A DNA stretch of 64,000 nucleotides from Thermococcus henrietii (GTDB lineage Archaea > Methanobacteriota_B > Thermococci > Thermococcales > Thermococcaceae): contig NZ_LT900021.1 of the NCBI RefSeq assembly GCF_900198835.1, positions 1,984,001 through 2,048,000 of the forward strand, in the 5' to 3' direction. The notes below the pieces were generated by a model that made no database searches, was not told where the DNA came from, and saw only the letters and a program-made list of their open reading frames with translations. This document shows, in pieces, positions 35,757-37,730 of the stretch. The stretch's first letter is position 1. The number at the start of each line of letters is the position of its first letter. The position numbers and the translations under genes are program-made.

Positions 35757-36974
35757 ATGGAAACGGTTCCACTTCTGGTTGGGCTAGTTATGGGTTTGGT
35801 CACCTCGTACACCGACCTGAAGACCGGCTTCATCTTCGACAACCACGTCTCGGTTCTTTTAGCGCTCATCGGAAAGTTCCTCGGCTGGGATGAGGGCGAA
35901 GAGGAGGTTCCCCTCTCGAAGTGGCTCGTCAAACTGCCGGTTCCGGCCGTTGAAATTGGAATCCTCTACTATCTTTACAAGGGACTGAGTGAGGGCAGCG
36001 TTTTGGTTGCCCTCTCAGGAATAATAGCCCTAGTCGTTGGGCTGATTCTCGGTCTGCTCCTATTCTACATCGGGGCATGGGCGAGCGGCGACGCGGTTAT
36101 ACTGGCCGGCTTCTCCGCGCTCCTGCCGTACCCGCCCGACACAGCCAAAATAACCGCCCCCTACTACCTCCACTACCCGCTCTACCCAATAGCAATCCTC
36201 CTCAACGGCCTCATCGCAGTGTTCCCGTTCATCTTCATCTACGCCTTTGGCGTCATAATCCTGAGGAAGCGCTTCTCGGAGCTCAGAGAGATATTCGTCT
36301 CGGGAGCGGGCCTCACCGTGGAGCTGTCCCTCTGGATTATGGGCGCCTTCGGCGTTCGGGTAATCCTCGAGAAAGGTCTCGGTCTCTCACTGAACCCCGT
36401 CGTCGGCTGGCTCCTCGCGATAGTTCTCATAACGGTCTTCGGCATGCTGAGAAAGGTCGGGGACGTTGTTGGAGCGCTCGTCCTGGCGTATCTCGTCTAC
36501 CTATCACCAGAGAGCACGATTTTCGCCTTCTTAAGGCTCCTCGCGTTTCTCTATGCCTTCAAGGTGTTCCTGGCACTCGTCAAGTTCATAAGGCGGGAGG
36601 TGCTCGTGGAGGAGGTGCCGGTTGAGGAGCTGAGGGAGTGGGACATACTGGGAGAAACAGTCTTCGAGAAGGACGGAGAAATCGGACGCGACAGAACCGA
36701 CCCCTTCGAGAGGCTCAAGGTCGCACTCCTGAAGGCGGACCTTTCGCTCCTCAAGCCGGACCACGGGAAGGTCATAGCATCACCAACGGCAGAGGGACTA
36801 ACGAAGGAGCAGATTGAGGAACTCAAGAGACTCGTGGAGGAAGGAAAGCTGGAGAACAGGTTCCTTAGAAAGAAGGCGATGCCCTTCGCCCCGGCGATAT
36901 TCCTCGGCTTCCTGATAAGCTACTTCATCGGCGACCTGTTCTGGCTCCTCGAGCTCAAGTTGATGGGCCTTTAA
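35757..36974 (+). CDS. Archaeal prepilin peptidase (A24 aspartic protease, EppA-like)
   Basis: This 405-residue membrane protein has about eleven hydrophobic segments. The two A24-type catalytic aspartates are visible in TSYTDLKTGFIFDNH near residue 20 and in YIGAWASGDAVILAG near residue 109. Such enzymes cleave class III signal peptides from pilins in the membrane. The gene directly follows a class III pilin-like gene and GGTGAAAGT precedes its ATG. A soluble segment lies at about 280-365. It is distinct from the archaellum peptidase, which is not seen in this window. Confidence 0.85.
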   Translation: METVPLLVGLVMGLVTSYTDLKTGFIFDNHVSVLLALIGKFLGWDEGEEEVPLSKWLVKLPVPAVEIGILYYLYKGLSEGSVLVALSGIIALVVGLILGLLLFYIGAWASGDAVILAGFSALLPYPPDTAKITAPYYLHYPLYPIAILLNGLIAVFPFIFIYAFGVIILRKRFSELREIFVSGAGLTVELSLWIMGAFGVRVILEKGLGLSLNPVVGWLLAIVLITVFGMLRKVGDVVGALVLAYLVYLSPESTIFAFLRLLAFLYAFKVFLALVKFIRREVLVEEVPVEELREWDILGETVFEKDGEIGRDRTDPFERLKVALLKADLSLLKPDHGKVIASPTAEGLTKEQIEELKRLVEEGKLENRFLRKKAMPFAPAIFLGFLISYFIGDLFWLLELKLMGL

Positions 36975-36984
36975 AGTTTTAAGG
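36969..36984 (+). promoter_or_regulatory. TATA box of the tandem guide RNA locus
   Basis: CTTTAAAGTTTTAAG overlaps the stop of the prepilin peptidase gene. A transcript starting about 25 bases downstream would begin at 37000-37005, exactly where the predicted H/ACA stem begins. Confidence 0.55.
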
Positions 36985-37002: not shown

Positions 37003-37062
37003 CCGGCCCGGCGCCCGCCCTCCCTGGGGAATCGTGAACCGGGGGTTCCGGTCGGGCCGACA
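37003..37062 (+). ncRNA. Probable H/ACA-box guide RNA
   Basis: A G/C-rich segment without coding potential folds into one hairpin: a basal stem GGCCCG (37005-37010) with CGGGCC (37053-37058), an internal loop suited to a pseudouridylation pocket, an upper stem CTCCC with GGGGG, and an apical part containing GGGGA and GTGA elements that could form a kink. The trinucleotide ACA (37060-37062) follows the stem after one base, as expected for the ACA box. It would guide pseudouridylation of rRNA. The target is not assigned. Confidence 0.6.
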
Positions 37063-37122
37063 GGGGGATGACGAGCTTTTGCTTTGCCGAGCGGTGAGGA
37101 GCACGCCCTTCACCGACCCCCT
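37062..37122 (+). ncRNA. C/D-box guide sRNA, directly after the H/ACA RNA
   Basis: All elements are present in order: closing stem AGGGGG (37062-37067), C box ATGACGA (37068-37074), 12-nt guide GCTTTTGCTTTG, D' box CCGA (37087-37090), 3-nt spacer, C' box GTGAGGA (37094-37100), 12-nt guide GCACGCCCTTCA, D box CCGA (37113-37116), stem CCCCCT (37117-37122). It probably derives from the same precursor as the H/ACA RNA. Its 3' end overlaps the 3' end of the convergent HAD gene by 13 bases. Both D-type boxes have C instead of U at the second position. Confidence 0.75.
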
Positions 37123-37730
37123 ATTAAGCCCTCGATTATCTCCTGCACTTCCCTCAGGCTCTCGACGACGTGGTCGCCCTCAACACCCTCGTGCGGGTTT
37201 ATCGCTATCGCCACGTCTGCCTCGCGGAACATGCTAAGGTCGTTGAAGCCGTCGCCAACGGCCACCGTCAGCTCTGGCTTAAGCTCCTCCTTGAGCCTTC
37301 TGAGTATCGCGCCCTTCCCCTCGAAGTCCACAGCGGGAACGACGCCGGCAACTTTTCCGTCCTTGAAGACCAGCTCGTTGGCGAAAACGTAGTCCGCCTT
37401 AAGCTCCCTCGCGACCCTTCCGGCCAGGCACATCAGCCCGCTCGAGAGGAGGGCTATTTTGAAGCCGTTCTCGCGCAGAAAGTCCATCAGCTCAAAGGCG
37501 TAGTCGTTGTACTCAACCGAGTCCGCCCACTCGAGGATTTCTTCCTTTTTTCTGCCGAGCCAGAGGGAAGCGTCCAGCTCCGCCCACTTCGCGTAGTCTA
37601 TCTTTCCGGCAAAGAACAGCTCCGCGTACTCCTTCCCCTTCTCCCACGTGCCGAACTTCTTGTGGAGCTCAACCCAGCTCGAGCGCGCCTTTACGAGGGT
37701 TCCCTCGACGTCGAAAGCTATGAGCCTCAT
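37110..37730 (-). CDS. HAD phosphatase, phosphoserine-phosphatase-like
   Basis: This 206-residue HAD protein has MRLIAFDVEGTLVKARSSW, where the usual DxD is DxE, then IALLSSGLMCLAGRVARELKADYVFANELVF and VAVGDGFNDLSMFREADVAIAINPHEG. These match the SerB-like branch with a helical cap. Whether it acts on phosphoserine is uncertain because of the motif I change. Its 3' end overlaps the C/D sRNA. Confidence 0.78.
   Translation of the reverse strand: MRLIAFDVEGTLVKARSSWVELHKKFGTWEKGKEYAELFFAGKIDYAKWAELDASLWLGRKKEEILEWADSVEYNDYAFELMDFLRENGFKIALLSSGLMCLAGRVARELKADYVFANELVFKDGKVAGVVPAVDFEGKGAILRRLKEELKPELTVAVGDGFNDLSMFREADVAIAINPHEGVEGDHVVESLREVQEIIEGLIGGR

Follow-up and report, generated by a model that had tools for sequence, protein, structure and literature searches.

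A Pab21/snoR9 orthologue in Thermococcus henrietii joins an H/ACA guide and a C/D guide RNA in one gene

The window, meaning the whole 64-kb stretch of DNA that was analyzed, holds a tandem of two guide RNAs between two convergent protein-coding genes. The H/ACA hairpin spans 37004 to 37062 and the C/D sRNA spans 37062 to 37122, with base 37062 common to both. On sequence inspection, every element of the H/ACA and C/D tandem named in the first-pass annotation lay where that annotation had put it, and its claim that the C/D sRNA begins at the last base of the ACA (37062) was borne out. The convergent neighbor (37110 to 37730), which from its sequence we take to be a HAD phosphatase-like gene, reaches into the sRNA. 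Its stop codon lies within the D guide, and the codons just ahead of that stop run antisense to the D box and terminal stem (37110 to 37122). The features of the locus are as follows.

35757-36974, + strand: prepilin-peptidase-like ORF, the upstream neighbor, on the same strand as the sRNA (name from the first-pass annotation)
36976-36982, + strand: TATA-like box GTTTTAA, the best TATA-like motif, centered 25 bp before 37004, the H/ACA 5' end
37004-37129, + strand: whole gene, orthologue of P. abyssi Pab21 plus snoR9 (RF00065), from the Rfam match, the relatives, and PMC4652768
37004-37012, + strand: H/ACA lower stem P1, 5' strand, pairing with 37051-37059; 7 of 9 pairs changed on both sides, 97.6% of cells paired
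37014-37019, + strand: H/ACA 5' guide CCCGCC, pairing with 16S GGCGGG (rRNA match; conservation)
37021-37027, + strand: H/ACA upper stem P2, 5' strand, pairing with 37039-37045 (covariation)
37028-37038, + strand: K-loop GGAAUCGUGAA with tandem G.A / A.G of the L7Ae-binding type; GA and UGA invariant in 33 sequences
37039-37045, + strand: H/ACA upper stem P2, 3' strand (covariation)
37046-37049, + strand: H/ACA 3' guide UUCC, pairing with 16S GGAA (rRNA match; alignment)
37051-37059, + strand: H/ACA lower stem P1, 3' strand (covariation)
37060-37062, + strand: ACA box, whose final A also begins the C/D RNA (sequence; alignment)
37062-37067, + strand: C/D terminal stem, 5' strand, pairing with 37117-37122; the inner three pairs persist in 91-100% of relatives, unlike the outer pairs
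37068-37074, + strand: C box AUGACGA (sequence, alignment, motif scan)
37075-37086, + strand: D' guide GCUUUUGCUUUG, 11 contiguous pairs with 23S 203-213, predicted Gm206 (rRNA match)
37087-37090, + strand: D' box CCGA (sequence, alignment)
37094-37100, + strand: C' box GUGAGGA (sequence, alignment, motif scan)
37101-37112, + strand: D guide GCACGCCCUUCA, 10 contiguous pairs with 23S 52-61, predicted Gm55 (rRNA match)
37113-37116, + strand: D box CCGA (sequence, alignment)
37117-37122, + strand: C/D terminal stem, 3' strand (partial conservation)
37110-37730, - strand: HAD phosphatase-like ORF, the convergent neighbor

A covariance model search had been proposed in the first-pass annotation. 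An Rfam scan of the whole 64-kb window at the gathering threshold returned a sole match, to RF00065 (snoR9), at 37004 to 37129 on the + strand (118.7 bits, E 3.7e-27). The score lies above the 90-bit gathering score of the family, and the locus covers the model end to end (positions 1 to 128 of 128). Rfam labels the family C/D-box, yet the model takes in the H/ACA hairpin. In Pyrococcus abyssi, the H/ACA guide Pab21 (230,517-575) is the 5' end of the C/D transcript annotated as snoR9 (230,449-575, minus strand) (PMC4652768). We searched 94 family genomes with RF00065 and found a match at 230449-230575(-) in G004, where a second covariance model, built from the H/ACA half alone (the H/ACA-part model), matched at 230517-230575(-). 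These are the coordinates printed for snoR9 and Pab21 of P. abyssi in PMC4652768, and therefore the window locus is the orthologue. The helix P1 strand GGGCCCGGC quoted for Pab21 (PMC3726423) is found as P1 in the G004 locus (L007). In a reconstituted H/ACA RNP, Pab21 pseudouridylates a substrate in vitro (PMC3726423).

The window gene and P. abyssi Pab21 plus snoR9 are alike in order, length, guides, K-loop, P1, and boxes, and both carry the H/ACA guide at the 5' end. However, the D and D' boxes of the window gene are CCGA, not CUGA as in P. abyssi and in most relatives. The neighbors also differ, because the P. abyssi gene lies beside an ORF that is presumably asparaginyl-tRNA synthetase-like, judged from its sequence, and not beside the prepilin-peptidase-like and HAD phosphatase-like genes. 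The locus is real but not new: it is an unexceptional orthologue of a dicistronic guide RNA gene that was already known, and its tandem arrangement of H/ACA and C/D guides has already been published for the P. abyssi orthologue. The first-pass classification, an H/ACA and a C/D RNA served by a single putative promoter, is correct; the D and D' boxes here read CCGA.

The H/ACA half has the build of an archaeal H/ACA RNA, with an internal pocket, a lower stem of about 9 bp, an ANA-type box directly behind it, and a K-loop at 10 layers. P1 consists of 9 bp, one of them G-U. Above the pocket there are 10 stacked layers (7 pairs plus G.A, G.A, and A.G), and the 3' side of the pocket has 5 nt. In the productive "10/5/9" fold of H/ACA RNAs, the K-turn or K-loop sits 10 stacked layers above the pocket (PMC4652768), and the window geometry is this fold. 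We aligned 33 distinct hairpins from relatives on a structure of P1 (9 bp) and P2 (7 bp). Across the Thermococcaceae, 96% of the stem cells were paired, and 9 of the 16 pairs had changed on both sides; none of 500 shuffles scored as high, and slid structures dropped to 29 to 58% paired. The pair 37027-37039, for example, reads G-C in the window gene but C-G in 18 of the 33 sequences. The pocket-closing pair 37021-37045 is unformed in 12 of the 33. The folding energy of the whole hairpin was not unusual for its composition when compared with shuffles (z 0.29), and we dropped it as evidence.

The C/D half has the C, D', C', and D boxes, 12-nt guides, and short D'-C' spacer of an archaeal C/D sRNA. 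The guide core CUUUUGCUUU is identical in 32 distinct C/D halves, and so is CACGCCCUUC, save for one base in one sequence. In relatives, the H/ACA stems show compensatory changes, and the C/D boxes and guides are kept. The AGGGGG/CCCCCT terminal stem of the C/D half is present with 6 bp, but conservation in relatives is confined to roughly the inner three pairs, and covariation in this stem was no better than in slid controls. In seven Thermococcus relatives' loci (L033, L034, L035, L070, L072, L073, and L075), the D'-C' spacer has an inserted G+C-rich hairpin-like stretch, which is unusual for archaeal C/D RNAs.

Motif scans of both strands placed each half at a single site in the window. A 9-bp stem followed by ACA with the spacing of an H/ACA RNA occurs once, and so does the C-D'-C'-D arrangement, which was found 0 times in 5 shuffles. 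Upstream, GTTTTAA is the putative promoter of the gene. A TATA-like motif matching at least 6 of 7 positions lies within 50 bp upstream in all 49 H/ACA-bearing loci, mostly at a distance of 23 to 30 bp. Among random 40-bp stretches of the window, 7.9% reached a 6/7 TATA-like match and 0.6% reached 7/7.

The pocket formed by UUCC and CCCGCC fits one rRNA site, 16S GGAA-UU-GGCGGG, around an unpaired UN. By the usual rule, the predicted target is 16S U869, which would be U879 in the matching P. abyssi rRNA. Most 5'-guide substitutions in relatives preserve the pairing as G-U, and the variants pair by G-C or G-U. A possible second register at 23S U1315 was set aside because the pocket base that it needs varies among relatives. 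In 23S rRNA, the D' guide pairs with 203 to 213 (11 contiguous Watson-Crick pairs) and the D guide with 52 to 61 (10 such pairs). The box+5 rule places the 2'-O-methylated nucleotide, and by this rule the methylated nucleotides would be 23S G206 (D' guide) and G55 (D guide). Shuffled guides gave a perfect 10-mer in 59 of 20,000 cases for D' (0.3%) and 282 of 20,000 for D (1.4%), and shuffled H/ACA pockets gave a match in 1.9% of trials. Taken by themselves, the target matches are modest evidence. All three target stretches are unchanged in about 40 Thermococcaceae rRNAs, and the genome encodes fibrillarin and a dyskerin-type domain (Cbf5). In the 23S DNA search, G002 (L118) was the sole genome with two full-length matches, and it apparently has two rRNA operons.

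The C/D half is present in every examined locus that has either half, but the H/ACA half is not. The latter is absent or a remnant in the examined g4, g2, and g6 loci, in G041 and G067, and in G054 and G064, and it is decayed in G091, G092, G056, and G066. A midpoint-rooted tree of 16S and 23S rRNA, which does not decide the state at the root, places G041/G067, G054, and G092, in which the half is absent or decayed, within groups of H/ACA-bearing genomes; therefore, at least three independent losses of the H/ACA half are needed. In several lineages without it, a TATA-like box precedes the C/D RNA by about 25 bp, a spacing that excision of the hairpin between the promoter and the C/D RNA would leave. 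The H/ACA-part model found no stand-alone copy of Pab21 in the family genomes. Weak extra matches to this model were rejected as Pab21 copies, since those examined were HgcE, HgcF, and HgcG (Pab105, Pab35, and Pab40); these archaeal H/ACA RNAs share the hairpin design, but they contain H/ACA motifs only, without a C/D half, and carry other guides. Neither half was found by model or pattern in three genomes of the same genus (G034, G046, and G055; 94 to 99% complete). The accessible part of the guide RNA literature yielded no description of the loss, which is a modest addition to a known gene. Relatives with and without the H/ACA half provide a natural experiment to ask if cells can dispense with a pseudouridine in a conserved part of 16S rRNA.

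We consider it very probable that the locus is a Pab21/snoR9 (RF00065) orthologue with one promoter and one transcript, comprising a single-hairpin H/ACA guide at the 5' end and a double-guide C/D sRNA at the 3' end. A pair of abutting sRNA genes that are independent and separately promoted would agree with the evolutionary separability of the halves and with the TATA-like box that some lineages lacking H/ACA have about 25 bp ahead of the C/D 5' end. However, because base 37062 is common to both halves, a C/D promoter would have to be sought within the G+C-rich hairpin, which shows none, and the published P. abyssi transcript covers both halves. We regard two separate genes as highly unlikely. 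It is scarcely credible that the hairpin is a regulatory or terminator stem ahead of an ordinary C/D sRNA and not an H/ACA guide. Its folding energy, unremarkable by itself, would suit such a stem, but P1 and P2 covary, the K-loop and ACA are invariant, the conserved guide letters match 16S rRNA, and the orthologous Pab21 is active in vitro (PMC3726423).

The first-pass annotation had further suggested that the fusion couples the two guide classes. An uncut RNA could act as a double-headed RNP that coordinates the 16S pseudouridine with the 23S methylations, in the manner of eukaryotic mixed scaRNAs, and both the abutment at the ACA in many genomes and the joint transcript in P. abyssi (PMC4652768) would fit this idea. 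But the abutment is not strict, with 2 extra bases in L011, L012, L019, and L021. Moreover, the predicted targets belong to different rRNAs, 16S and 23S, and hence to different subunits. In g4, g2, g6, and several further genomes, the H/ACA half has decayed or is missing, while the C/D half has been retained. That the halves are separable and their targets are on different subunits argues against obligatory coupling, and functional coupling of this kind seems improbable to us. We likewise doubt the broader proposition that the gene yields an uncut double-headed guide RNP, or else has a dispensable H/ACA module whose repeated loss alters 16S pseudouridine between related species. If true, it would amount to natural variation in archaeal ribosome modification.

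As a dicistronic guide RNA gene, the locus may work as follows. One promoter would give one transcript, with the H/ACA guide 5' and the double-guide C/D sRNA 3', and the two halves may be cut apart. The H/ACA hairpin would bind L7Ae at the K-loop and Cbf5-Nop10-Gar1 at P1 and the ACA, and would direct pseudouridylation of 16S U869 (local numbering). The C/D half would bind L7Ae, Nop5, and fibrillarin and direct 2'-O-methylation of 23S G55 by the D guide and G206 by the D' guide.

Eukaryotic mixed C/D-H/ACA scaRNAs also hold both guide classes in one RNA, but there the H/ACA part is nested in the C/D RNA, the targets are snRNAs, and the setting is the Cajal body. In the window gene, the halves stand head to tail and the predicted targets are rRNAs. 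The tRNA-C/D dicistrons of archaea and plants (PMC7994747, PMC4247193) similarly have a C/D sRNA directly behind a structured RNA in one transcript. In those dicistrons, however, the C/D RNA is released by 3' maturation of a partner tRNA, whereas the partner here is an H/ACA guide. C/D RNAs of P. furiosus in general occur in linear and circular forms (PMC7994747), and the T. kodakarensis transcriptome confirmed 69 predicted small RNAs (PMC4247193). The accessible parts of a circRNA paper (PMC12558985) and an archaeal methylation paper (PMC4644070) have no passage on the window RNA. The gene is a clear case of an archaeal transcript that combines two guide classes and should be useful for the study of C/D sRNA 5'-end formation.

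Outside g3, 62 of 63 loci have both flanking genes next to the sRNA, and the remaining locus (L062) has one of them. None of the nine g3 (Pyrococcus) loci has them. In L050, L052, L054, L055, L062, L063, L064, L067, and L071, the sRNA is reversed relative to the convergent flanks, so that the phosphatase gene is upstream and the peptidase gene downstream. The arrangement is suggestive of an inversion of the intergenic cassette in these loci.
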